DNA of 41,396 nt from Rhodocyclales bacterium (GTDB lineage: Bacteria > Pseudomonadota > Gammaproteobacteria > Burkholderiales > Rhodocyclaceae): positions 1 to 41,396 of the forward strand of contig JACPUD010000016.1 in assembly GCA_016192435.1 (NCBI GenBank), in the 5' to 3' direction. The notes beneath the pieces were generated by a model. The model was given only the letters and a program-made list of their open reading frames with translations, made no database searches and was not told the DNA's origin. This document shows positions 600 through 41,396 of the stretch, in pieces. How positions within the stretch are numbered: the first letter of the stretch is position 1; each line of letters opens with the position of its first letter. A program made the translations under genes and the position numbers.

Positions 600-1143
600 G
601 CCAGCGAATTTCGCGATCCCGCAAGAACTGGAGACCCGGCGGTTGCGGCTGCGGATGTTCCGCGACGACGACTGGCGCGGACTGCACGAGCATTACGCCG
701 ATCCGGAATGCACGCGCTTCACCTTTCGCCGTGCTTTGACGGAAGCCGCGACCTGGCGCGCCATGGCCAGCATGGCCGGGCACTGGCTGCTGCGCGGCTA
801 TGGACCCTACGCGGTCGAGGAAAAGTCCTCGGGTACCGTGCTGGGCACGGTCGGGGCCTGGTATCCGATCGAATGGCCGGAGCCGGAAATCAAGTGGTCG
901 CTGGCGCGGCGGCACTGGGGCCAGGGCTACGCCAGCGAGGCGGTGCGCGCGGTGCAGCGCATGGCGCAGGACTGCCTGCCGCACCTGCGTCTGATCAGTC
1001 TGATCGACAGCCGCAACGAGGCCTCGATCCGGCTCGCGCTGGCGGTCGGCGCCGTGCTCGAACGCGAGATCGAATTCGCCGGTGCGCCTTTCCACGTGTA
1101 CCGTCATCCGGAAAAGCATCAGGCGTCGGAAACACAAACATGA
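583..1143 (+). CDS. GNAT family N-acetyltransferase
   Basis: 186 residues. The opening ETRRLRLRMFRDDD is the usual start of the RimJ/RimL-like branch of GNAT acetyltransferases, which move an acetyl group from acetyl-CoA to an amine, often a protein N-terminus. The segment around residues 95-125 (WSLARRHWGQGYASEAVRA) matches the acetyl-CoA pyrophosphate-binding motif A (R-x-x-G-x-G/A), and NEASIRLALAVGA near the C-terminus is the typical motif B. ATG 583 has AAGGGAG nine bases upstream; the gene overlaps both neighbours. The substrate cannot be read from the sequence. Confidence 0.88.
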   Translation: MNQGTEPANFAIPQELETRRLRLRMFRDDDWRGLHEHYADPECTRFTFRRALTEAATWRAMASMAGHWLLRGYGPYAVEEKSSGTVLGTVGAWYPIEWPEPEIKWSLARRHWGQGYASEAVRAVQRMAQDCLPHLRLISLIDSRNEASIRLALAVGAVLEREIEFAGAPFHVYRHPEKHQASETQT

Positions 1144-1910
1144 CATCGCGCGCCATCGTCGCCCTGCTGCCGGCGCTATTCGCCATTGAAGTCGCCGCGG
1201 CCGATTTGCCGGCGGGCAACTGCGCTGCGCCGCAGGCGGCGACGGATCTTTCCCGTTGCGATTTTTCGCGCAAGAAACTGGCGGGCAGGGATTTGCACGG
1301 CGCGCGGCTGGCCGGCGCCAAGCTGGAAGGCACGGATTTCAGCAAAGCCAACCTGTCCGCCGCCGACCTCAGCGGCAGCAATGCCAAATGGGCCAAGTTC
1401 ACCGGCGCCAATCTTGCCGGCGCGGCCCTGCGCAATGCCGACCTGTTTCATGCGACCTTCGACGACGGCGATCTGAGCGGCGCGAATCTCGCCGGCGCCA
1501 ACCTGTTCGGCGCCAACCTGATCAACACCCGGGCGCCGCGGGCCGATTTTTCCGGCGCCTACCTGAAGGACGTGCTGATGGAGGGGATCGACCTCTCGGG
1601 CGGCTCGATCCGCAACTGCTATGCGTTTCGCGGCGTGTTTTCCGGTGCCCGCCTGGTCGGCACCGATCTGTCCGGGGCCGACCTGACCGGCGCCGCGATG
1701 GAGCAGGCCGACTTCACGGATGCCCGGCTCAGGCAGACGCGGCTCAAGGGCGCCACCCTGCGCCAGGCGGTATTCTTCAATGCCGACATGCAGGATGCCG
1801 ACCTGGCCAATGCCGATGTCTGGAACGCCAGCTTCGACCGGGCGCTGAACCGCAGCGATTCGGTGCAGGAGGCTCTGGTCGAACCTTTCGTTGTCAGGGA
1901 ACGCCGGTAG
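1140..1910 (+). CDS. exported pentapeptide-repeat protein
   Basis: 256 residues. The ATG overlaps the stop of the acetyltransferase gene (ATGA), so translation is probably coupled. The first 21 residues form a signal peptide (hydrophobic core, cleavage likely after AVAA-type residues near 20), followed by a short spacer containing two cysteines. From about residue 45 to 245 the chain is a run of pentapeptides of the A(D/N)LxG type, the signature of a right-handed quadrilateral beta-helix. Such folds are scaffolds or protein mimics; the export signal makes a gyrase-protecting Qnr-type role unlikely. No catalytic motif is visible and the function is unknown. Confidence 0.85.
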   Translation: MTSRAIVALLPALFAIEVAAADLPAGNCAAPQAATDLSRCDFSRKKLAGRDLHGARLAGAKLEGTDFSKANLSAADLSGSNAKWAKFTGANLAGAALRNADLFHATFDDGDLSGANLAGANLFGANLINTRAPRADFSGAYLKDVLMEGIDLSGGSIRNCYAFRGVFSGARLVGTDLSGADLTGAAMEQADFTDARLRQTRLKGATLRQAVFFNADMQDADLANADVWNASFDRALNRSDSVQEALVEPFVVRERR

Positions 1911-1941
1911 TTCCCCGGCCTGCCAGCGCGGAGCACCCGGC

Positions 1942-2796
1942 ATGAACATGAGCGCAGAAAACCTGGCTTTCGAACTGCGCAGCGCCGACGGCGTAACCCT
2001 GGCGGGCCAGGCCTGGCTGCCGCCCCAGCCGCTGGCGGTGATCGCGGTGGTGCATGGCATCGCCGAGCATTCGGGTCGCTATGCCTTTCTCGCGGCAAGG
2101 GCCAATCGCCAGGGCATAGGCGTGGTCTCGGTGGATTTGCGCGGCCATGGCCGCTCGCCGGGCGAGCGTTCCTATGTCGAACGCTTCGACGACTATCTGC
2201 TGGACGTCGATGCACTGCTGACAACGGCGCAGGAATTTGCCGCGGGCCGCCCGCTGTTCCTCATGGGGCACAGCATGGGTGGCGCGATTGCCCTGCGCTG
2301 GCTGGCGCTGCGCCGGCAGCCGCTGGCGGGGGTGATTCTGTCGTCCGCCGCGCTGAAGATCGGCGGCGACGTGCCGCGCCTGCTGGTGGCGCTGGCGCCG
2401 CTGCTGTCGCGCTGGCTGCCGCACCTGCGCGGCAGCCGCCTCGATCCGACGCTGATCAGCCGCGATGCGGCGGCGGTGGCGGCCTATGTCGATGACCCGC
2501 TGGTCAGCCTACAGGCGCCGCCGGCGCGCACCGGGGCCGAGTTGCTGCGGATCATGGCGGCCAATCGCGCATCGGCGCCGGGGCTCGATGCGCCGGTGTA
2601 CCTGTTTCACGGCGATGCCGACCGGCTCACCGACCCGGCCGGCAGCCGGGAAATTTTCGACCTGTGGGGCGGCGCGGACCGCAGCCTGCGGCTGTGGTCC
2701 GGCAGCCGCCACGAGACGCTCAACGACCTGGACCGCGAGGACGTGGCGGCGGAGCTGCTGGACTGGGTGCGGGCGCATACCCCGAAGAGCGATTAG
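1942..2796 (+). CDS. alpha/beta hydrolase, monoacylglycerol lipase-like
   Basis: 284 residues. It carries the marks of the serine aminopeptidase S33 / monoglyceride lipase family (Hydrolase_4): the oxyanion-type motif HGIAEHSGRY near residue 38, the nucleophile elbow GHSMGG near residue 110, the acid residue in HGDADRLTDP near 220 and a late histidine in SRHETLND near 255. These families cleave acyl-glycerols or lysophospholipids. There is no signal peptide, so it is probably cytoplasmic or loosely membrane-associated. The start is the ATG at 1942; another in-frame ATG lies two codons later. The true substrate is unknown. Confidence 0.88.
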   Translation: MNMSAENLAFELRSADGVTLAGQAWLPPQPLAVIAVVHGIAEHSGRYAFLAARANRQGIGVVSVDLRGHGRSPGERSYVERFDDYLLDVDALLTTAQEFAAGRPLFLMGHSMGGAIALRWLALRRQPLAGVILSSAALKIGGDVPRLLVALAPLLSRWLPHLRGSRLDPTLISRDAAAVAAYVDDPLVSLQAPPARTGAELLRIMAANRASAPGLDAPVYLFHGDADRLTDPAGSREIFDLWGGADRSLRLWSGSRHETLNDLDREDVAAELLDWVRAHTPKSD

Positions 2797-2936
2797 ATCA
2801 TTGGCGTTGCGATTCTGGCCCGGCGCCGGAGCTTGCCATTCGCCGCGCAACGTCCGATGAACTATGGTTGTATTAACGCTTATGCTGCCAATGACTGCAC
2901 TTCCGACGATGAAATAACGCAAATGCGAATTGAACA

Positions 2937-3030
2937 CCCGCCCCCCTTCGCCCCCCTCGCGGGGGGTTCCTGGTTGGCTCGCTGCGCTCGAATGTTGCAG
3001 GGCGCACTCATTGGTGCGTTTCACGTTAAA
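2937..3030 (+). repeat. dispersed ~94-base repeat, copy A
   Basis: Starts with a C-rich block and a hairpin at 2951-2966 (six C, TCGC, six G), continues with GGCTCGCTGCGCTCGA and ends with CGTTTCACGTTAAA. A second copy in inverted orientation lies at 29857-29947 with the same beginning, middle and end but a different stretch of about 25 bases before the last block. It fills most of the gap before the DUF3014-type gene. No coding sequence is seen in 2797-3088. Confidence 0.8.
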
Positions 3031-3088
3031 GGGGCCTTCGGGGCCGCTACGCCTGGCTTGTCCTGCAACCATTGAAGGAGATCGCATC

Positions 3089-3871
3089 ATGCAAAAAACA
3101 ACACTATGGGGGGCGGCAGCCGCCGTGCTGATCGGCGCTGGTGCGGCAGCCTATTATTTCCTGCAGGATGAGCCGCCGCCGCCGGCTCCAGCGCCAAAAA
3201 TTGCGCGCGATCCGGTGCGGGCGGCGCCTGCGCCGGTTGTGGCGCCGACCATACGCCATCCGCTCGCCGGCGTAACGGCCACGGGTCTGCCCGATCTGGA
3301 GCAGAGCGATGCGCCCCTGCTGCAGGCGCTGGACGAATTGCTGGGCAAGAAATGGCGGGCCTATTACTTCCCCGAAAGTGTGGTCCGGCGCATCGTCGCC
3401 ACCGTGGATAATCTTCCGCGCCAGCGCCTGCCGGCCGATGTGATGCCGTTCAAGCGCGTACCCAAGGCTTTCGTCACGACGGGCAAGGGCGATTCACTGG
3501 CGATCGGCGCGCGCAATTCTGCTCGCTATGCCGCCTATGTGTCGGTCGTTGCCGCGCTCGATGCGGCGAAACTGGTCGCGGTGTATGTGCGCTTCTATCC
3601 GCTGTTCCAGAAGGCCTACGAGGAGTTGGGGAACCCGAAGGCCTATTTCAACGATCGCCTGGTCGCAGCCATCGACGACCTGCTGGCTGCGCCGGAACTT
3701 GCCGGACCGGTCAAACTGGTGCGGCCGCTGCTGCATTACGAGTTCGCCGATCCCGCGCTGGAAGCGCGCTCCGCCGGCCAGAAGATCATGATCCGGATGG
3801 GCAACGACAACGCCGCCAGGGTCAAAGCCAAGTTGCGCGAGGTCCGCAAGCTGGTGGCGACCGGAGGATGA
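3089..3871 (+). CDS. DUF3014-type membrane-anchored protein
   Basis: 260 residues. ATG 3089 is preceded by GAAGGAG at a good distance. A single transmembrane segment (about residues 6-26, ending AAAYYFL) is followed by a proline-rich linker and then a globular domain with LLGKKW, RRIVATVDNLPR and RLPADVMPFKRVP, which I recognise as the DUF3014 family found in many proteobacteria. The topology (short cytoplasmic N-terminus, proline-rich linker, periplasmic domain) suggests an envelope role, but no activity is known for the family. It stands alone between a repeat and a possible terminator. Confidence 0.8.
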   Translation: MQKTTLWGAAAAVLIGAGAAAYYFLQDEPPPPAPAPKIARDPVRAAPAPVVAPTIRHPLAGVTATGLPDLEQSDAPLLQALDELLGKKWRAYYFPESVVRRIVATVDNLPRQRLPADVMPFKRVPKAFVTTGKGDSLAIGARNSARYAAYVSVVAALDAAKLVAVYVRFYPLFQKAYEELGNPKAYFNDRLVAAIDDLLAAPELAGPVKLVRPLLHYEFADPALEARSAGQKIMIRMGNDNAARVKAKLREVRKLVATGG

Positions 3872-4237
3872 ACTCGCCAAATGGGGAAATAAAACAAACC
3901 ACTTCAAGAGTTGGGTTTTTAGTCTTATAGTTAACCTATCACGAACACACGGGGCGAAACCCTGCTTCGCGTGTTTTCCCGAGCCGGTGCCAAAGCGCCT
4001 GCTCTCCCTGCGGATCGGGAGCAACTCCCGGCTGCACTGTGATGGGGTCGGTGGATTCTGCCCTCAAGGCTAGGATCGGCCGACCCGGTTTTCTTCGTTG
4101 TCTCTCCACGGCAGGCGCATGCCACGACAAGTGGCGCGTTGGCCGTTCGAGGCGCGAGATGAAATCCATGATCTTGGCGCGGCTTTGTTTCTCGCTTGAA
4201 GAAACGCCGCGCCGCACAGGCGAGGGAGCAGGGAGTA
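3872..4237 (+). other. 366-base structured leader upstream of rnfB
   Basis: No convincing gene. The plus strand holds several inverted repeats: CGGGAG (4016-4021) with CTCCCG (4025-4030), where the same GGGAG could pair instead with CTCCC at 4004-4008; GGGTCGG (4045-4051) with CCGACCC (4080-4086); and a strong hairpin with arms GGCGCGGC (4176-4183) and GCCGCGCC (4206-4213), extended inside by GTTTC/GAAAC. The last hairpin ends 24 bases before the rnfB start. This could be an untranslated leader with a control role. It matches no riboswitch class I can name. Confidence 0.4.
3896..3920 (+). terminator. possible Rho-independent terminator after the DUF3014-type gene
   Basis: AAACC-ACT, loop TCAAG, AGT, two-base bulge, GGTTT, running into a T-tract at 3916-3920. 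The stem is short and AT-rich, so strength is uncertain. Confidence 0.45.
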
Positions 4238-5139: not shown

Positions 5140-8100
5140 ATGCCCATCACGCTGATCAAGAAAATCTTCTCCTCCACGCTGCTTGAGTCCGGCAGCGCCG
5201 GCGTCGATGCAAAGTCGGTCAAGTACCCCGGCCTGCGCGACGCGGTCGACGGCAACACCGCCGTGATCCATGTCGAGCGCGAGGCGTCCGACGCCGCCGG
5301 CGCCTACCCGATCACGCCTTCGACGCAGATGGGCGAGTACTGGGCGGAGGAGGTCGCCGCCGGGCATCTGAACATTTCCGACCGGCCGCTGATTTTCATC
5401 GAGCCCGAATCCGAGCACGCCGCCGCCGGCGTTACCGCCGGCATGGCCATGACCGGCCTGCGCGCGGTCAATTTCTCGTCCGGCCAGGGCGTTGCCTTCA
5501 TGCACGAGTCGCTCTACGCCGCGGTCGGCAAGCGCCTGCCCTATGTGCTCAACATGGGCTGTCGCGCCATCACCAAGGTCTCGCTCAACGTCCATGCCGG
5601 CCACGACGACTATCACTGCATCGACGACACCGGCTTCATCCAGGTCATGGCCAAGAACGCCACCGCGGCCGCCGACCTCAACCTGATCGCGCGCAAGCTC
5701 GCCGAGCTGTCGCTGACGCCGGCGATCATCGGCCAGGACGGCTTCCTCACCACCCACCTGATCGAATCGGCGCTGCTGCCCGAGCGCGAACTGGTGGCCG
5801 AGTATCTGGGCAAGCCCGATGACCTGATCGACACGCCGACGCCGGCGCAGCAGATGCTGTTCGGGCCGAAGCGCCGCCGCGTGCCAGCGATCTGGGACGT
5901 GGACAGCCCGGTGGTATCGGGCACGGTGCAGAACCAGGACGCCTACATGCAGGCCACGGCGGGCCAGCGCCCGTATTTCTTCGACCACATCGAAGCCCTT
6001 GCCGACGGCTGCATGGACCAGTTCGCCGCACTGACCGGGCGCCGCTACCAGCGCGTCGCCGGATTCAAGGTCGACGATGCCGATTACATCATCCTCGGCA
6101 TGGGCAGCATGATCGTGCAGGCCGAAGCGGTCGCCGACTATCTGCGCGAGACGCGCAAGCTCAAGGTCGGCGTGGTCGACCTGACCATGTTCCGTCCCTT
6201 CCCCGGCGACCTGCTGGGGCATGTGCTGCGCGGCAAAAAGGGTGTGGCGGTGCTGGAGCGCACCGACCAGCCGCTGGCCGAAGACCTGCCGGTGATCCGC
6301 GAACTGCGCGCGGTGCTGATGAAGTGCGTCGAAAATGGCATGGCGGCGACCCAGGGCCAGGGCGGCGAACTGCCATTCCCCGGATATGCCAGCTACGGCG
6401 CGGGCGAGCTGCCGCGCCTGTATTCGGGCTGTTACGGCCTCGGTTCGCGCGACCTGCAGCCCGAGGCGTTGATCGGCACGGTGGAGAACATGCTGCCGGA
6501 TGGAGCGCAGCGCAAGTTCTTCTACCTTTCGGTCGATTTCGCCCGCGATCCGATCAATCCCAAGGACGAGGTACATCAGCAGGATATCGCCGACAAGTAT
6601 CCGCGCATCCGCGAACTGGGCGTGCGCGGCTCGGAGAATCCCAACCTCTTGCCCAAGGGCGCGATCACCGTGCGCATGCACTCGGTCGGCGGCTGGGGCG
6701 CCATCACCACCGGCAAGAACCTGGCGATGACCTTGTTCGAACTGCTCGGCTGGGACATCAAGGCCAATCCCAAGTACGGTTCGGAGAAGAAGGGCCAGCC
6801 GACCACCTACTACCTCTCGGCGGCGCCGGAACCGATCCGCATCAACTGCGAATACACCTATGTCGATGTCGTGCTCTCGCCCGACCCGGCGGTGTTCGGC
6901 CACAGCAATCCGCTTTCGGGTCTGAAAAAGGGCGGCTTCTTCATCATCCAGTCCAATCTCGGCGGCGAGACCTGGGCCAGCTTCCCGCTCTGGGCGCAGA
7001 AGTTCATCGTCGACAACGAGATTCGCGTGTTCTACCTCGATGCCTTCCAGATCGCCCGCGACGAGGCCGGCGCGGCGGAACTGCAGTTGCGCATGCAGGG
7101 CATCGCCTTCCAGGGCGCCTTCTTCGCCGCCAGTCCGACCATGGCCAACGCCGGGCTGACCGAGGATGCGCTGTTCACGGCGATCGAGGCGCAGCTGCAG
7201 GCCAAGTTCGGCGGCAAGGGCGCGCGCGTGGTGGCCGACAACCTGCGCGTGGTGCGCCGCGGCTACACCGAGCTGACCGAGATCACCGAGAAGGAAGTCG
7301 GCGTCACGCGCAAGACTTTCGTCAAGAAGGATGCCGGCCTGCCGGTGATGCTGCAGCAGATGCCGGCCAGCGACGGCAAGATCGCCGACATCCACCGCTT
7401 CTGGGAACAGACCGGCAACTTCTACCTGACCGGCCGCGGCAACGACAACCTGGTCGATCCCTTCATCGGCATGTCGCTGGTGCCGGCCGCCACCGGCGTC
7501 TATCGCGACATGACGGGCATCCGCTTCGAGCACCCGAAATGGATCGCGGAGAACTGCACGGCCTGCGGCAACTGCTACACGGAATGTCCGGACTCGGCGA
7601 TTCCGGGCCTGGTCAGTTCGGTCTCCGACGTGCTGGCGACGGCCTTGAACCGCATCGAAACCTCGGGCACGCCGACGCGCTTCCTGCGCCGCGCCGTGCG
7701 CAGCGTCGAGAAGAAGCTGCGGGCGCTGGTGGACCACCACGGCGGTGCCGTGCGTCCGCTGTTCGACATCGCCATCGACGAGGTCATCGCCGAGGCGCCC
7801 GACGCGGATCGCGCCGGCCTGGCGGCCGAGTTCACCCAGTTGCAGATCCAGCTCGGCGGCTTCCAGTTCGGCACCACCAAGCCCTACTGGGGCCAGATGG
7901 AGAAGAAGGCCAAGGGCAGCGGCGGGCTCTTCTCGATCACCGTCAACCCGTACACCTGCAAGGGCTGCGCGCTGTGCGTGACGGTCTGCGAGGACAACGC
8001 GCTGGAAATGGTGACGCAGACCGAGGAATCGGTCGATCGCCTGCGCCGCGACTGGAACACCTGGCTGGAACTGCCGACCACGCCCAAGGAATACAGCCGC

Positions 8101-35651: not shown

Positions 35652-35987
35652 TCAGACGCAGCCGGTCGGCTTCGGCAGGCCGGCGATCTTGCATGCCTGC
35701 TTGGCCGGACCGTAGGGGAACAGGTCGTACAGATACTGGCTGGTGCCCTTGTCCGGACCGAGCTTCTTGCCGATGGCCTTGGTCAGCACGCGCACGGCCG
35801 GGGCGATCTGGAACTCGTTGTAGTAGTCGCGCAGGAAATTGATGACTTCCCAGTGCTGGTCGGTCATGGCGACGTTTTCGGTCTGCGCCAGGTAGTTGCC
35901 GACGTCCTCGTTCCATTCGCCGAGGTTGACCAGATAGCCTTCTTCGTCGGTTTCGTAGGACTTGCCGTTGACTTCGATGCTGGACAT
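35652..35987 (-). CDS. dsrC: DsrC, sulfur-carrier protein
   Basis: 111 residues. It contains the family core MTDQHWEVINFLRDYY and the C-terminal arm with both redox cysteines: Cys99 in AKQACKIAG and Cys110 as the second-last residue. Having both is the mark of true DsrC, which carries sulfur as a persulfide to DsrAB and releases a trisulfide. GAAGGAGACA-type sequence precedes the ATG on the minus strand. It follows dsrEFH, its sulfur donor, and is followed by a terminator, which would favour high dsrC transcript levels. Confidence 0.97.
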   Translation of the reverse strand: MSSIEVNGKSYETDEEGYLVNLGEWNEDVGNYLAQTENVAMTDQHWEVINFLRDYYNEFQIAPAVRVLTKAIGKKLGPDKGTSQYLYDLFPYGPAKQACKIAGLPKPTGCV

Positions 35988-36041: not shown

Positions 36042-36341
36042 TTACAGCCAGGACTGGCAGTTCTTGTGCTCAGCGACCAGGTCGACGAAGCCGCCGTAAT
36101 CCACGGTGGCAACGCCCGCCATGACGCGGTCGCCCATGCCGCGCGCTTCCAGGTCCGGCGCGAGGGCATAGATCTTGAAGCGCGAGAGTGCGTCGCGCAG
36201 GTGGTTTTCGGCCGTATTGCCACGGGTGGCGGCATAGACCGCGTCCTCGATCAGCAGAATGGCAGCGCCGTCCTGGGCAACCCGCAGGCAGGATTCCAGC
36301 GCATTGCGTTCGGCCGGCGATTTATTGACGATGTGCAACAT
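36042..36341 (-). CDS. dsrH: DsrH, subunit of the DsrEFH sulfur transferase
   Basis: 99 residues, TusB family. It opens MLHIVNKSPAERNALESC, with Cys18 near the position of the conserved cysteine of DsrH, and ends in the typical tryptophan-containing NCQSWL. It forms a hexamer with DsrE and DsrF that hands sulfur to DsrC. It lies 11 bases after dsrF and 54 bases before dsrC. Confidence 0.95.
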   Translation of the reverse strand: MLHIVNKSPAERNALESCLRVAQDGAAILLIEDAVYAATRGNTAENHLRDALSRFKIYALAPDLEARGMGDRVMAGVATVDYGGFVDLVAEHKNCQSWL

Positions 36342-36352
36342 TGTTTTCTCCC

Positions 36353-36724
36353 TTAGAAGCTGAGGACGACGTCCATCTCGTCCATCAGCTTGCCCAGTTC
36401 GGCACGCGACATGACGGTGACGTCGACCAGCAGGTCGTCTTCGGTCAGGCCGCGGGCGGTCAGGGCTTCGGCTTCGACATAGAGCTTCTCGATGTCGTAG
36501 CCGTCCAGCGCGCGGTAGGTCGGCGAGAAGTTCTTGTTCTCGATACCCTTGGTCTGCTGGCCCTTTTTCAGCTGGAATATGCCGTCGTCCATGAAGACGA
36601 GGCTGACGTCCTGGTCGAAGGCCGCCGTGATCAGCACCACTTCCAGCGATTCGAGCGCATAGATGGTGCCGTAGGGGGCCTTGCGATTGACGAACATGAA
36701 CTTCTTGATGGCGCCTTCGCTCAT
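36353..36724 (-). CDS. dsrF: DsrF, subunit of the DsrEFH sulfur transferase
   Basis: 123 residues, TusC family. The ATG at 36724 gives MSEGAIKKFMFVNRKAPYGT, matching the family start; a few extra codons upstream are open but overlap dsrE. DsrF lacks the active cysteine of DsrE and has a structural role in the hexamer; no cysteine is seen in this copy. It starts one base after the dsrE stop. Confidence 0.95.
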   Translation of the reverse strand: MSEGAIKKFMFVNRKAPYGTIYALESLEVVLITAAFDQDVSLVFMDDGIFQLKKGQQTKGIENKNFSPTYRALDGYDIEKLYVEAEALTARGLTEDDLLVDVTVMSRAELGKLMDEMDVVLSF

Positions 36725-36725
36725 G

Positions 36726-37085
36726 TCAGTCTCCAAAGGTCACGAGGCGGTCGGCCTCGATGCCGGCTTCGACCAGCTGGCCGAGTCCCGAAATGCGGAA
36801 GCCCGGTGCCAGGTTCTCGTCGCGAATGCCGCGCCGCAGGGCGGCGGCAACGCAGACCACGAGGTCGAGCTTGTGGTCTTCCGCGAGCTTGGACCAGCGC
36901 GTGACGATGTTGCGATCGTCCTGCGGCGGCTCGGTCAGCGACGACGCGTTGTTCACGCCGTCGTTGTAGAAGAACACGCGACGAATCTCGTGGCCCTTCT
37001 CCAGCGCAGCCCGGCAGAACAGGTAAGCCGAGTCGCTGGCCTGGTGCTGGTAGGGTCCTTCGTTGATGGTGACTGCAAATTTCAT
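36726..37085 (-). CDS. dsrE: DsrE, catalytic subunit of the DsrEFH sulfur transferase
   Basis: 119 residues, TusD family. It opens MKFAVTINEGPYQHQASDSA and carries the active Cys78 in DLVVCVAAALRRG, the same number as in Allochromatium DsrE. This cysteine receives persulfide sulfur (from TusA-type donors) and passes it to DsrC. It lies 23 bases downstream of dsrB. Confidence 0.96.
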   Translation of the reverse strand: MKFAVTINEGPYQHQASDSAYLFCRAALEKGHEIRRVFFYNDGVNNASSLTEPPQDDRNIVTRWSKLAEDHKLDLVVCVAAALRRGIRDENLAPGFRISGLGQLVEAGIEADRLVTFGD

Positions 37086-37108: not shown

Positions 37109-38197
37109 TCAGAAACGGATGTGGGTCGAGGCGTTGAGATTGGCACGCGAACCGCGCCAGTCGTCGATCAGGTACTTGGTGAAGGGCAGACCGGTCTTCT
37201 CGAAGAAACGCGGCCAGCCGATGCGGTCGATCCAGTCCGACAGGCGCTCCCAGGGACGGGCGTCGGCCTTGTAGGTGCGCAGGATGTTGCCCACCACGGC
37301 ATTGACTTCGGGCCAGCGCGGCGCGTTGTTGGGCAGGCCGGAAGCGACCATCTTCATGAAGGTGGGCTTGCCGCGCGCATTGGAGTTCTTGCCGCCGACC
37401 CAGATCGCCAGCTTGGAATGCTCCGGATCGTTGATCTGCATCGGCGGGCAGGGGGGATAGCAGGCGCCGCAGCAGATACACTTCTTTTCATCGACTTCGA
37501 GCGAAGGCTTGCCATTGACCAGTGCCGGACGGATCGCGGCGACCGGGCAGCGGGCGACGACGGTCGGGCGCTCGCAAACGTTGGCGACTAGGTCGTGGTT
37601 GATCTTGGGCGGCTTGGTGTGCTGGATGATCACGGCGATGTCGGCCTGGCCGCCGCAGTTGATCTCGCAGCAGGAGGTGGACATATGCACGCGGTTGGGC
37701 ATTTCCTCGTTCTTGAACTCGTGGTAGAGCTCGTCCATCATCGACTTGACCACGCCCGAGGCGTCGGTGCCGGGGATGTCGCAGTGCAGCCAGCCCTGAG
37801 TGTGGGATACCATCGACACCGAGTTGCCGGTGCCGCCGACGGGGAAACCGTTCTTTTCGAGTTCGGCGATCATCGGCTCGACCTTCTTCTGGTCGGCAAC
37901 CATGAACTCGATGTTGGAACGAATCGTGAAGCGGACAAAACCTTCGGCGAACTGGTCGGCGATGTCGCACAGCTTGCGGATGGTCCAGACGTCCATCTGG
38001 CGCTGGGTGCCGGCGCGCACGGTCCAGATCTCATCGCCGCTATGCGACACGTGGTGCAGCACGCCGGGACGGGGCCGGTCGTGATACTTCCAGTTGCCGT
38101 AGTTCTTGATCATCGTCGGGTGCAGGTGCGGCTTGTTGTCCGGCACGCCGCATTCGATGGCTTTGCGCAGCGGGGCGGGTGGGGTGGGTGCATTCAT
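37109..38197 (-). CDS. dsrB: DsrB, beta subunit of reverse dissimilatory sulfite reductase
   Basis: 362 residues. Visible motifs: sirohaem-site region with TSCCEINCGGQADIAV near 170-186, CERPTVVARCPVAAIRP near 210-225, and the ferredoxin insert CICCGACYPPCPPMQI near 238-250. With DsrA it forms the cytoplasmic enzyme that oxidizes the sulfur of DsrC persulfide to sulfite. It starts 11 bases after dsrA. The length fits the family. Confidence 0.97.
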   Translation of the reverse strand: MNAPTPPAPLRKAIECGVPDNKPHLHPTMIKNYGNWKYHDRPRPGVLHHVSHSGDEIWTVRAGTQRQMDVWTIRKLCDIADQFAEGFVRFTIRSNIEFMVADQKKVEPMIAELEKNGFPVGGTGNSVSMVSHTQGWLHCDIPGTDASGVVKSMMDELYHEFKNEEMPNRVHMSTSCCEINCGGQADIAVIIQHTKPPKINHDLVANVCERPTVVARCPVAAIRPALVNGKPSLEVDEKKCICCGACYPPCPPMQINDPEHSKLAIWVGGKNSNARGKPTFMKMVASGLPNNAPRWPEVNAVVGNILRTYKADARPWERLSDWIDRIGWPRFFEKTGLPFTKYLIDDWRGSRANLNASTHIRF

Positions 38198-38208
38198 GCT
38201 CGATCTCC

Positions 38209-39504
38209 TCAGGCGGCAGCTTTTTTGGCGTTGATCCGGGCGACTTCTTCGTCCCAGCCGGCGGTATTGACATAGGGGTTCATGCGCGGCGTCGAGACCA
38301 TGTTGGCGTCGATGTCGACTTCGATGCCTTCGAGGAAATTGACCAGGCCGATGCGCTCGATCATTTCGCCGGTGCGTTCATGCTCCAGCGCGTTCTCGGC
38401 GAAGAAATCGATGATCTTCTGACCCAGCTCGGTCAGCTTCTCGTAGTCCTCGTCCTTCTGCAGCGGCATGAAGGGAATCACTACGGTGCCCATCAGGTCG
38501 CCGATCTTCAGCGTGCGCTTGCCGCCGACCAGAACCGTGGCGCCCTTGTCGACACCGGTCGCCAGCGCGCCGGTCATGACGTTGATGCAGTGCATGCAGC
38601 GCACGCAGTCCTTGTTGTCGATTTCCAGAGCCTGGGCGTCATTGATGGCGACGCTGGAGAAGTGGCTGTCCTTGCGGACGTCCTTGATCTCCTTGATCTG
38701 GATCGCCTTGGTCGGGCAGCGGGCGACGACGTCATTGACCAGTTCGTTCATGCCGTGCTTGGCAAACCACTTCTTGCCCAGCGCGTCGTCGGTGCGGATG
38801 TTGTCGCGCCAGGTGCCGATCACGGCCATGTCCGAACGCTGGATGGAATTCATGCAGTCGTTGGGGCAGCCGGAGAACTTGAACTTGAACTTGTAGGGCA
38901 GGGCCGGACGATGGATGTCGTCGAGGAAGGTATTCAGCACTTCGCGGTGGGCCTTGGCTTCGTCATAGCAGGACTGCTCGCAACGGGCCGCGCCGACGCA
39001 GGACATCGAGGTGCGCACGGCCGGGCCGGCGCCGCCGAGGTCGAAGCCCATATCGTTGATTTCGTCGAAGGCCTTTTGCACGTTTTCCGTGGTGGCGCCC
39101 TGGAACATGATGTCGCCCGACTGGCCGTGCAGCGCGATCAGGCCGGAGCCGTGCTTTTCCCAGATGTCGCAGAACTGGCGCAGCGTCGCGGTGTTGTAGT
39201 GCATGCCGGGAGGCGGCATGACGCGGATGGTGTGGAACTCGGCGGCATCCTTGAACACCGGGTTGCCCTTGTCATCCTTGATTTCGGTGAAGCGCGGGAT
39301 GATGCCGCCGCCGTAGCCGCGCACGCCGACCGTGCCGCCCTTCCAGTAGCCCTTGCGGGTCTGGTAGGAATGTTCCAGATGGCCGAGAATGTCGACCACG
39401 TAATCCTTGTCCTTGGCCAGGCGCTTGAGGCCGGTGACGAAGCTCGGCCAGGGGCCGCTTTCCAGTTGATCCAGGTTCGGTGTTGGGTGCATGGGCTTGG
39501 CCAT
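38209..39504 (-). CDS. dsrA: DsrA, alpha subunit of reverse dissimilatory sulfite reductase
   Basis: 431 residues. The sirohaem/4Fe-4S ligands lie in CVGAARCEQSC near 168 and FSGCPNDCMNS near 210, and the ferredoxin domain has CPTKAIQI near 265 and CVRCMHCINV near 300. The ATG at 39504 has AGGAGA on the minus strand seven bases upstream. As first gene of the cluster it probably follows the main dsr promoter in the 190-base divergent region. DsrL and DsrEFH in the same cluster indicate the oxidative type. Confidence 0.97.
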   Translation of the reverse strand: MAKPMHPTPNLDQLESGPWPSFVTGLKRLAKDKDYVVDILGHLEHSYQTRKGYWKGGTVGVRGYGGGIIPRFTEIKDDKGNPVFKDAAEFHTIRVMPPPGMHYNTATLRQFCDIWEKHGSGLIALHGQSGDIMFQGATTENVQKAFDEINDMGFDLGGAGPAVRTSMSCVGAARCEQSCYDEAKAHREVLNTFLDDIHRPALPYKFKFKFSGCPNDCMNSIQRSDMAVIGTWRDNIRTDDALGKKWFAKHGMNELVNDVVARCPTKAIQIKEIKDVRKDSHFSSVAINDAQALEIDNKDCVRCMHCINVMTGALATGVDKGATVLVGGKRTLKIGDLMGTVVIPFMPLQKDEDYEKLTELGQKIIDFFAENALEHERTGEMIERIGLVNFLEGIEVDIDANMVSTPRMNPYVNTAGWDEEVARINAKKAAA

Positions 39505-39695: not shown

Positions 39696-39935
39696 TTGGA
39701 TACCGTCACCTCGCTCGACAAGTTCCGTGTGCCCATCGGCAACCAGGAGATCGAACTGCAACAGTTCGTCTTCGAGGCCGGCGGCATGCCGCTACTGCGC
39801 ACGCGGATTCGCGAGCGCAGCCGCTTCACCATTTTCGACATCGATCCGGCCACCGCCGCACGTTGGGGCAAGGTGCTCTGCGCCTGGGCCGCAACGCAGC
39901 CCGGCGGTGCCGAAGCGGGCGGGGAGAACGAGTGA
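39696..39935 (+). CDS. small protein of unknown function, coupled to Cas6-like gene
   Basis: 79 residues from a TTG start at 39696 (LDTVTSLDKF, with GGA seven bases upstream); an earlier TTG at 39645 would add 17 residues. The core, EIELQQFVFEAGGMPLLRTRIRE and RFTIFDIDPATAARWG, looks like a compact folded domain, but I cannot name the family. The stop overlaps the GTG of the Cas6-like gene (GTGA), so the two are likely made together. It reads away from dsrA from a shared upstream region. Confidence 0.7.
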   Translation: MDTVTSLDKFRVPIGNQEIELQQFVFEAGGMPLLRTRIRERSRFTIFDIDPATAARWGKVLCAWAATQPGGAEAGGENE

Positions 39936-40561
39936 ATCATGCGCCGGACGAGGCTTCGGCCGCGATGGTCGACGTGGTGTTCTCGCTCGAAGCGGGAACA
40001 TTCGGCGACGACCATGCCGAGGCCTTGGCGCGGGCGGTACGGCGTGTCCTGCCCTGGTTCGACGAGGAAGCCGAAGCCGGCATTCTGCCGCTGTCCGGGC
40101 TGGCGCACGGCAACAATGGTGTGTGTTTCGTCGGCCGTCGCAGCCGGTTGGCCTTGCGTCTGCCGATTCACCGTAGTGCCAGCGCCAACTCTCTGGCCGG
40201 CGCCCGGCTCGATCTGGACGGCGCGGTGCTGACCGTGGGTGCGGGCAGCGTCCGTCCGCTGCTGCCGGCGCGCGGTGTCGTCTACTCGCATCTGGTCAGT
40301 GTCGGCGCCGACGACGAGATCGAATTTATCGCGCGCTGCAAGTCGCTGCTGGCCGGGCGCGGCCTGCAGCCGCAACTGATTACCGGCAAGGCGCAGGAGC
40401 TGCGCACGGCGCAGGGCGTCGTGCGTGGTTTCAGCCTGATGCTGCATGGCCTGGCCGCCGCGGAATCGCTGGCCATGCAGGAGTGCGGCCTCGGCGCGCA
40501 TCGCATGCTGGGCTGCGGCTTATTCATTCCACATAAATCAGTCGTTGCCGTCGGCAACTGA
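39932..40561 (+). CDS. Cas6/Cmx6-like RAMP-fold protein without a CRISPR array
   Basis: 209 residues from GTG 39932, with GGGGAG six bases upstream. The pattern VVFSLEAGTFGDDHAEAL at the N-terminus, SRLALRLP near 70, LDGAVLTVGAGSVRPLLPARGVVYSHLV near 95-120, and the C-terminal glycine-rich ECGLGAHRMLGCGLFIPHK near 185-203 matches what I know of the type I-MYXAN Cas6 family (Cmx6, Cas6-2). Cas6 proteins cut precursor CRISPR RNA. No CRISPR repeats or other cas genes are seen here. The conserved early histidine region of the family (L-P-x-H-E) appears as LPWFDEE, so catalysis is uncertain. A copy of the short dispersed repeat lies inside at 40171-40200. Confidence 0.75.
   Translation: MNHAPDEASAAMVDVVFSLEAGTFGDDHAEALARAVRRVLPWFDEEAEAGILPLSGLAHGNNGVCFVGRRSRLALRLPIHRSASANSLAGARLDLDGAVLTVGAGSVRPLLPARGVVYSHLVSVGADDEIEFIARCKSLLAGRGLQPQLITGKAQELRTAQGVVRGFSLMLHGLAAAESLAMQECGLGAHRMLGCGLFIPHKSVVAVGN
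40171..40200 (-). repeat. short dispersed repeat, copy 7 (inside the Cas6-like gene)
   Basis: On the minus strand it reads CCAGAGAGTTGGCGCTGGCA then CTACGG. It is antisense to the gene, which reads it as H-R-S-A-S-A-N-S-L-A-G. Confidence 0.65.
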
Positions 40562-40586: not shown

Positions 40587-41069
40587 ATGTCCGAAGTTGC
40601 CACCGTTACGCTCGATGTATGCGGCCTGCCCTGTCCGGCACCGCTCCTGGGCGCCAAGAAACTGATCGACGACCTGCAGCCCGGCCAGACGCTGCGCCTG
40701 ATTTCCGATTGTCCCGGCACCGCCGACGACTTGTTCGCCTGGGCCAAGGTGACCGGCAATGTCGTGCTCGGCAGCGAAAAGCTGGGCGGTCACAAGAGCG
40801 CCTACCTGATCCAGCGCGCCGGCGGCGCCAATGCCACACCGGTCGCCCATGTCACCCTCGACATGCGCGGCGTGTCCTGTCCCGGCCCCATCGTGCAGGC
40901 GAAAAAGCTGCTCGACGGCATGCAGCCGGGCGAGGTGCTGCAACTGGTCAGCGATTGCCCCGGTTCGGCCGACGACATCACGTCCTGGGCCAAGGCCGGC
41001 GCCGCCAATTTGGTGTTTACGCATGAATCCGGACGCGGCGTGCACGAGTTTTATCTGCGCAAGGCTTGA
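40587..41069 (+). CDS. tandem TusA-domain sulfur carrier
   Basis: 160 residues: two TusA-like domains in one chain (about 5-78 and 86-160). Each has the active motif, CPAP with Cys16 in the first and CPGP with Cys98 in the second, followed by the helix AKKL. Each also has a second cysteine in SDCPGTADD (Cys42) and SDCPGSADD (Cys124), where single TusA proteins usually have no cysteine. TusA accepts sulfur from rhodanese or cysteine desulfurase and passes it to DsrE. ATG 40587 has GAGGAGA upstream. It probably belongs to the same transcript as the Cas6-like gene, 25 bases before it. Confidence 0.9.
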   Translation: MSEVATVTLDVCGLPCPAPLLGAKKLIDDLQPGQTLRLISDCPGTADDLFAWAKVTGNVVLGSEKLGGHKSAYLIQRAGGANATPVAHVTLDMRGVSCPGPIVQAKKLLDGMQPGEVLQLVSDCPGSADDITSWAKAGAANLVFTHESGRGVHEFYLRKA

Positions 41070-41087
41070 GCCTTGCGCAGATAAAAC
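41048..41087. repeat. perfect 18-bp hairpin spanning the stop of the tandem TusA gene
   Basis: Arms 41048-41065 and 41070-41087 are exact reverse complements (GTTTTATCTGCGCAAGGC and its complement) around the loop TTGA. The stop codon TGA (41067-41069) lies in the loop. No T-run follows the second arm, so it is not a standard Rho-independent terminator on either strand. Confidence 0.85.
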
Positions 41088-41154: not shown

Positions 41155-41396
41155 ATGAGCTACACCATCAACGGCGTCGAGAAGGAAGTGAACGAGTACG
41201 GCTACCTGCTGGAGCCTGACTTCAGCGAGGAAGCGGTGCACGTGATCGCCGCCGCCTGCGGCATCACCATGACCGACCAGCACTGGAAGGTCGTCAATTT
41301 CCTGCGCGAGAAGTACAAGGAAGACGGCCACACGCCGAACATGCGCAACCTGATCAAAGGTCTGCAGGAGGAAGGCGACATGCCCGAGGCCGACAG
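41155..41396 (+). CDS. second DsrC/TusE-like protein (cut by window end)
   Basis: 80 residues before the sequence ends. ATG 41155 has AGAGGAGA upstream. ITMTDQHWKVVNFLREKY is the DsrC/TusE core and NMRNLIKGLQEE follows, but the N-terminal part (MSYTINGVEKEVNEYGYLLEPDFSEEAV) differs clearly from DsrC in the dsr cluster, and an extra Cys lies in AAACGIT near 41. The C-terminal arm with the redox cysteines is outside the window, so it cannot be decided whether this is a full DsrC, a TusE or a regulatory relative. Confidence 0.9.
   Translation, partial: MSYTINGVEKEVNEYGYLLEPDFSEEAVHVIAAACGITMTDQHWKVVNFLREKYKEDGHTPNMRNLIKGLQEEGDMPEAD

Follow-up and report, generated by a model that had tools for sequence, protein, structure and literature searches.

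A Cas6-like gene in the reverse-Dsr locus, probably borrowed for sulfur metabolism

The reverse-Dsr (rDsr) pathway is among the main routes by which bacteria oxidise sulfur, and little is known of how it is controlled. At the end of the window, by which we mean the whole stretch of 41,396 nucleotides analysed here, a dsr locus includes a gene for a Cas6-like protein (39932-40561, plus strand; 209 residues, GTG start). Directly 5' of it, and overlapping its start by 4 nt (GTGA), lies a small gene of family DUF6967 (39696-39935, plus strand; 79 residues, TTG start; PF22295, E 8.4e-30). On the same strand it is followed by a tandem TusA (40587-41069; 160 residues with two TusA stretches; PF01206, E 4.5e-36) and by a second DsrC paralog (41155-41396; PF04358, E 2.8e-19), which is cut by the contig end so that its C-terminal residues are not visible. 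The minus strand carries dsrA (38209-39504; TIGR02064, 516.1 bits), dsrB (37109-38197; TIGR02066, 523.6 bits), three reading frames that we take to be dsrE (36726-37085), dsrF (36353-36736) and dsrH (36042-36341), with matches at the same place in relatives, and the region of the canonical dsrC (35670-35981), with the tail KQACKIAGLPKPTGCV. The sulfur-gene setting described in a first-pass annotation, with dsrA divergent and TusA and a second DsrC downstream, is thus as stated. A perfect 18-bp hairpin extends across the TusA stop (41048-41087, plus strand).

The same annotation had assigned the gene to the type I-MYXAN Cas6/Cmx6 family, and profile searches bear this out: the protein scores 164.4 bits (E 4e-48) against the Pfam Cas6 family PF09559, with a curated cut-off of 26.7, and 126.7 bits against the NCBIfam family TIGR02807 (cas6_cmx6), with a cut-off of 98.85. 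The Cas6 models of PADLOC match as well. The RAMP-type, glycine-rich motif at the C-terminus is also real, with conserved G186, G188, G194, G196 and R191 in the pattern GxGxxRxxGCG. Structure prediction, suggested earlier as a check, gave a Cas6 fold: the AlphaFold2 model (pLDDT 88, pTM 0.84; 78 sequences as input) is predicted to contain two ferredoxin-like folds, its top match in the PDB is 8fcj, the Cas6 of a type I-B CAST (TM 0.84, rmsd 1.9, 26% identity), and each of the 38 Foldseek matches at E <=0.001 is either an entry of the Cas6/Cse3 type or a Cascade complex. By profile and by predicted fold, the gene product is a genuine member of the Cas6 family. TIGR02807 matches all 24 of 24 dsr-linked members at E <=1e-10, and for the window protein and one of the 24, where score and cut-off could be compared (126.7 and 129 bits), both lie above it. 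Because NCBI's naming model for CRISPR Cas6 matches, the role of the gene is probably hidden by its name.

The gene does not have the appearance of a CRISPR gene. As had been noted from the letters, no array or other cas gene is apparent in the 41-kb window: an array scan, which detected the positive control L230, found no CRISPR-like array in the window, and genome-wide profile searches gave no match to Cas1, Cas7 or Cas5 on the contig of the window (C13). Linkage to cas genes and an array, a feature of type I-MYXAN Cas6/Cmx6, is absent here. Nor was an array found in any of 160 loci scanned; two CRISPR-like flags (L111 and L062) were rejected as tandem or dispersed repeats.

The genome of the window does have an array of its own. 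Another contig (C90, 3883 nt; L230) carries at 714-3883 a type I-C-like Cas4-Cas1-Cas2, where Cas4 and Cas2 are presumed from their sequence, and an array in which a 37-nt repeat occurs at least 15 times; the Cas6-like protein might then be a CRISPR Cas6 that serves this array in trans. We consider this extremely improbable, as the Cas1 on that contig is of type I-C, a type in which Cas5 processes the repeats and Cas6 is not known to occur. A locus has been classed as I-C by the presence of cas8c and the absence of cas6 in PMC5944118. It also speaks against service in trans that, besides the 160 loci without an array, 42 of 78 tested carriers of the Cas6-like gene have no match to Cas1 (36 have one, some of them weak); these 78 were hand-picked, 67 from a class sample that includes the genome of the window and 11 from an order sample. 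Profiles for Cas7 (PF05107) and Cas5 (PF09704) have no match in the window genome, which is 83% complete, and the interference genes of its I-C system are therefore missing or located in assembly gaps. A Cas6 match in a sulfur oxidiser is accordingly no reason to infer that CRISPR is present.

What the gene is linked to is the rDsr locus. In an order sample of 300 genomes, the Cas6-like gene was found in 58 and DUF6967 in 54, always as one copy, with both in 50 genomes. Loci were fetched for 36 of the 58 carriers, and for four genomes with DUF6967 only. The comparison of neighbourhoods that had been proposed gave a uniform result, as dsrA is divergent in 36 of 36 Cas6-like loci (about 4.7 kb away in L040), and all 36 have dsrAB and, within 1.5 kb downstream, a DsrC paralog ending in KGGY. 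DUF6967 adjoins the Cas6-like gene in relatives. In a class sample of 369 genomes, 118 carry the gene, with one match each save for one that is split into two pieces. Cas6-like gene and DsrA occur together in 111 genomes, the former alone in 7, the latter alone in 8 and neither in 243 (Fisher p 7e-75, relatedness among the genomes being left uncorrected; DsrA was counted at E <1e-30 with partial genes included, giving 119 genomes). The two genes are at most 6 kb apart in 82 of the 111 genomes, and divergent in 82 of these 82, while they are on different contigs in 27 and far apart on one contig in 2. Among 40 class loci that were fetched, picked to include odd cases and several short contigs, dsrAB is present in 26 and the KGGY-type DsrC in 31.

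In a collection of named records, at least 583 relatives of the protein were confirmed, and the titles of those listed are nearly all from Gamma-, Beta- or unspecified Proteobacteria, which suggests that the class sampled above is Gammaproteobacteria as GTDB defines it. The 80 retained loci contain dsrA or dsrB in 60 cases and a same-strand DsrC paralog in 65, of which 64 end in KGGY and one is cut off. The locus L222 is from a record titled Halobacteria archaeon and has a dsr locus of the proteobacterial type; this metagenome-assembled genome is probably mislabelled or chimeric. In a phylum sample of 229 genomes, the Cas6-like gene occurs in two, both from the order of the window. Five genomes of only 1.0-1.1 Mb have kept the Cas6-like gene and DsrA and have no Cas1, and this retention suggests strong selection on the gene. 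The earlier proposal of a domesticated, non-CRISPR role tied to the rDsr locus is supported by linkage and co-occurrence in the order, class and named samples. Judged from linkage, co-occurrence and phylogeny, the protein very probably has a Cas6 fold, is separate from CRISPR, and has become part of the reverse-Dsr locus, with which it is inherited in single copy.

The association is not without exceptions. Three members of a single family (G407, G621 and G523; loci L105-L107) lack dsrAB in the 18-kb locus, and any dsr gene is absent from the 6.5 kb around the Cas6-like gene; G407 and G621 have a KGGY-type DsrC at a distance of about 8 kb. Eight genomes in the class sample have DsrA and lack the Cas6-like gene. 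Among them, its absence from G408 and G509 may be an assembly gap, as the KGGY-type gene sits at the start of a contig, and G505, which is 99% complete, seems truly to be without it. DsrA-positive genomes of other classes lacked the gene in 45 of 45 cases in a draw of 229 genomes, taken to be that of the phylum sample. Of 20 fetched from these 45, 17 contain dsrAB but no dsrEFH and appear to represent a different type of Dsr, and two others (L232 and L233) are complete rDsr loci in genomes without the Cas6-like gene. The 45 absences were rejected as proof of dispensability because only these two are complete rDsr loci. Since the genomes of L232 and L233 lack the gene, as does G505, rDsr can evidently do without it.

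Some further features of these loci deserve mention. In other classes, L234-L243 and L245-L251 show another arrangement of the Dsr genes, in which dsrL comes after dsrAB and dsrEFH is absent from the 10-15 kb. In L102-L141, the stretch from dsrA to the Cas6-like gene and just after it contains a conserved TauD-type dioxygenase and small proteins of about 62, 235 and 70 residues, the tested representatives of which have no match in Pfam or NCBIfam; in many genomes these genes all belong to the divergent string.

Comparison with CRISPR-type Cas6 proteins was based on eight comparators, namely seven proteins from cyanobacterial plasmids and 8fcj. In a midpoint-rooted tree with a bootstrap that had not fully settled, one branch with a support of 100/100 separates 60 dsr-type proteins from the eight. 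So clean a split could mean that the dsr-linked proteins form a branch older than and outside CRISPR, from which the CRISPR Cas6 of that type was derived, or with which it shares an ancestor. We regard this as improbable, as CRISPR-type Cas6 of the same profile is found in another phylum on cyanobacterial plasmids and the fold is common to a wide set of CRISPR Cas6 enzymes, whereas the dsr-linked family appeared in the phylum sample only in those two members of the order of the window; the clean split, moreover, comes from a tree with a midpoint root only. One comparator (L146, plasmid of Gloeobacter morelensis, 5971-6762) has no annotated cas gene besides itself within its 12.6 kb, and lies near PAPS-reductase-like and cupin genes; it is possibly a second non-CRISPR case.

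The aligned proteins (186 dsr-type and the eight CRISPR-type) have several residues in common: R76 is present in all of them, H28 in 173/186 and 7/8, and R191 with the glycine-rich loop in both groups. The retained Cas6 fold, loop and common arginines argue for a nucleic-acid or RNA ligand. Four other positions are nearly invariant in the dsr-type proteins only: R70 (185/186 vs 1/8), E129 (185/186 vs 0/8), K202 (183/186 vs 0/8) and H201 (172/186 vs 0/8). The reverse holds for Lys190 (1/186 vs 7/8) and for His44 (0/186 vs 6/8), a candidate catalytic residue of CRISPR-type Cas6. His52 is present in 165/186 dsr-type proteins and absent from that of the window. Within the same aligned domain, the net charge ranges from +2 to +13 in the comparators (+6 to +14 for their whole proteins), while the dsr-type proteins have a median of 0, with 8 of the 186 at +6 or more; the charge is thus lower in the dsr-type, with overlapping ranges and conserved Arg, His and Lys positions that remain. 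The lower net charge and the lost His44 argue against a standard Cas6 nuclease, which the loss of this residue in 186/186 proteins would make less likely.

The lower charge and the new near-invariant residues R70, E129, H201 and K202, together with neighbours that are sulfur-relay proteins, would fit a Cas6 fold reused for protein binding, one that scaffolds DsrC, TusA or DsrAB or helps to assemble them, without any RNA. We consider this rather unlikely, as the glycine-rich loop, R76 and R191 of the CRISPR-type proteins have been kept. That the protein binds structured RNA through its Cas6 fold and glycine-rich loop appears to us somewhat more probable than its opposite.

Two hairpins had been put forward as RNA substrates, and the data support neither as proposed. 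No RNA family was detected in the window at gathering scores. No perfect stem of at least 10 bp (loop 3-10) is present in the window apart from the hairpin at the TusA stop, which has no second copy in the genome and looks like a recent inverted copy. None of 13 relatives has a similar stem, and only one of them (L035) has TusA at that spot; two others have unrelated 11-bp stems further downstream. This hairpin was therefore rejected as a substrate, and is probably unrelated to the Cas6-like protein.

The second candidate was the hairpin after dsrC, which had been described as strong. The 100 nt after dsrC are structured (z < -2) in 59% of 106 loci, four of which lack the Cas6-like gene, and in 54% of the 102 carrier loci; the corresponding value after the KGGY-type gene is 43% of 138, and that of a coding control 7% of 122. 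There is no excess over this control that would indicate a structured leader in the 100 nt before dsrA (6% of 126) or a structured region in the 100 nt after cas6 (8% of 155). Stems of at least 7 bp after dsrC are followed by a T-tract in only 1 of 58 loci with a perfect stem, and they are for this reason not plain terminators; possibly they are a stability or processing element for the dsrC mRNA. In the window, however, the region after dsrC has a z of only -1.42, which is not significant, and 3 of 4 order-level loci without the Cas6-like gene are structured there as well. Structure after dsrC is thus common, yet not tied to the Cas6-like gene, and as a specific substrate it is retained only in the less likely reading that follows.

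These data also bear on an active endoribonuclease that would cut hairpins of dsr transcripts, for example after dsrC, and so set the high ratio of dsrC to dsrM. The retained H28 and the frequent structure after dsrC with its single T-tract are compatible with such an enzyme, and a Cas6 without the canonical histidine can be active, as is described for Cas6-1 of S. solfataricus in PMC4041471. Against it stand the loss of His44 in all 186 proteins and of Lys190 in 185, and stem sequences that differ among the loci compared. We judge the endoribonuclease unlikely, and favour an RNA-binding regulator because the stems after dsrC are also found without the gene and that of the window is not significant.

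In G150 and G020, which belong to the same genus, DUF6967 and the Cas6-like domain share a single frame and form a natural fusion protein (L034, 8819-9712, and L071, 8228-9115, both on the minus strand). The DsrC paralog downstream ends in KGGY, where canonical DsrC has GC and one further residue. As the copy in the window is cut at 41396, these data come from relatives, in which the last redox cysteine is missing from 66 of 66 tails and the other is kept in five (L034, L035, L037, L050 and L071). Because the last redox cysteine has been lost, a role as sulfur carrier appears unlikely for the KGGY-type DsrC, and the loss would fit a regulatory, non-catalytic role. For A. vinosum, PMC5944118 describes binding of canonical DsrC to DNA upstream of dsr. 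The KGGY-type DsrC and the Cas6-like gene are not obligate partners, as the former also occurs in dsr genomes without the latter (G752, G835, G217, G277 and G505).

Our preferred explanation is an exapted Cas6 in the rDsr locus that acts as an RNA-binding regulator together with DUF6967 and the KGGY-type DsrC, and we give it a probability of about 0.5. The fold and the glycine-rich loop would hold a structured RNA; with the adjacent or fused DUF6967 and the neighbouring DsrC paralog, the protein would form a module for regulation, which would sense how the sulfur relay stands and adjust expression of the dsr genes accordingly. Direct cleavage of RNA is conceivable in this module and is not needed. 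Regulation of the dsr genes as such is put forward tentatively, with chances slightly short of even. Several observations count against the preferred explanation: an RNA partner was not found, the regions after cas6 and before dsrA being close to the coding control; the net charge is below that of CRISPR-type Cas6; and there are KGGY-type DsrC genes and rDsr loci without the Cas6-like gene, and carriers without dsrAB (G407, G621 and G523). A bolder version holds that an ancestor of these sulfur oxidisers acquired a Cas6 endoribonuclease in a single event, and that the enzyme now processes or protects specific hairpins of dsr messages such as that after dsrC, tuning the stoichiometry of the relay in response to the cysteine-less DsrC. 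It seems doubtful to us; if true, a CRISPR RNA enzyme would have been turned into a regulator of metabolic genes and inherited across a whole bacterial class.

Within the open literature, with subscription papers outside the scope, no report of a Cas6-like gene in a dsr locus was found in the parts of the papers available. This applies to PMC10952691, PMC5728499, PMC5944118, PMC10212523, PMC4041471, PMC6397845, PMC7596348 and PMC11406059, the available sections of which contain no description of such a gene; the open papers that hold both Cas6 and dsr terms include PMC8889020, PMC10989796, PMC5109826, PMC4046663 and PMC8226683. The gene is present as a single copy in nearly every sampled rDsr carrier of the class. 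Probably sulfur metabolism has borrowed it, and regulation through RNA binding is the likeliest use. If the protein acts on RNA, it would be a clear example of core metabolism being served by a protein from CRISPR processing.

Four known systems invite comparison. The DsrC paralogs without C-terminal cysteine, which we take to be RspA, resemble the neighbouring paralog in lacking the last cysteine in 66 of 66 tails; this likeness concerns the partner gene and not the Cas6-like gene, and the copy in the window is truncated. Cas6 of Pyrococcus furiosus (3pkm, 3i4h) has the fold in common with our protein (TMq 0.62-0.66) but is a distant CRISPR enzyme with 13-14% identity, and profile searches from the Cas6-like family, made in an attempt to map catalytic residues, did not reach it. 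The Cas6 of the type I-B CAST is much closer in fold, as reported above, and is matched by profile with an E of 1.2e-23; according to the title of its entry, 8fcj is a subunit of a CAST Cascade complex, whereas the Cas6-like gene sits in a sulfur locus. Type I-MYXAN Cas6/Cmx6 (TIGR02807, PF09559) has the profile match above the curated cut-off, length, H28, R76 and glycine-rich loop in common with the dsr-linked family. Scores against PF09559 overlap (147-224 bits for full-length dsr-linked proteins, 169-252 for CRISPR-type comparators), while those against TIGR02807 tend to be lower in the dsr-linked proteins (126.7 and 129 bits in two, compared with 161-255 in seven comparators), the best of 24 (E 7.7e-47) being about as strong as the weakest of the seven. 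The dsr-linked family differs from these CRISPR proteins in having no cas genes or array nearby and neither His44 nor Lys190, and in its lower net charge and its gain of R70, E129, H201 and K202.
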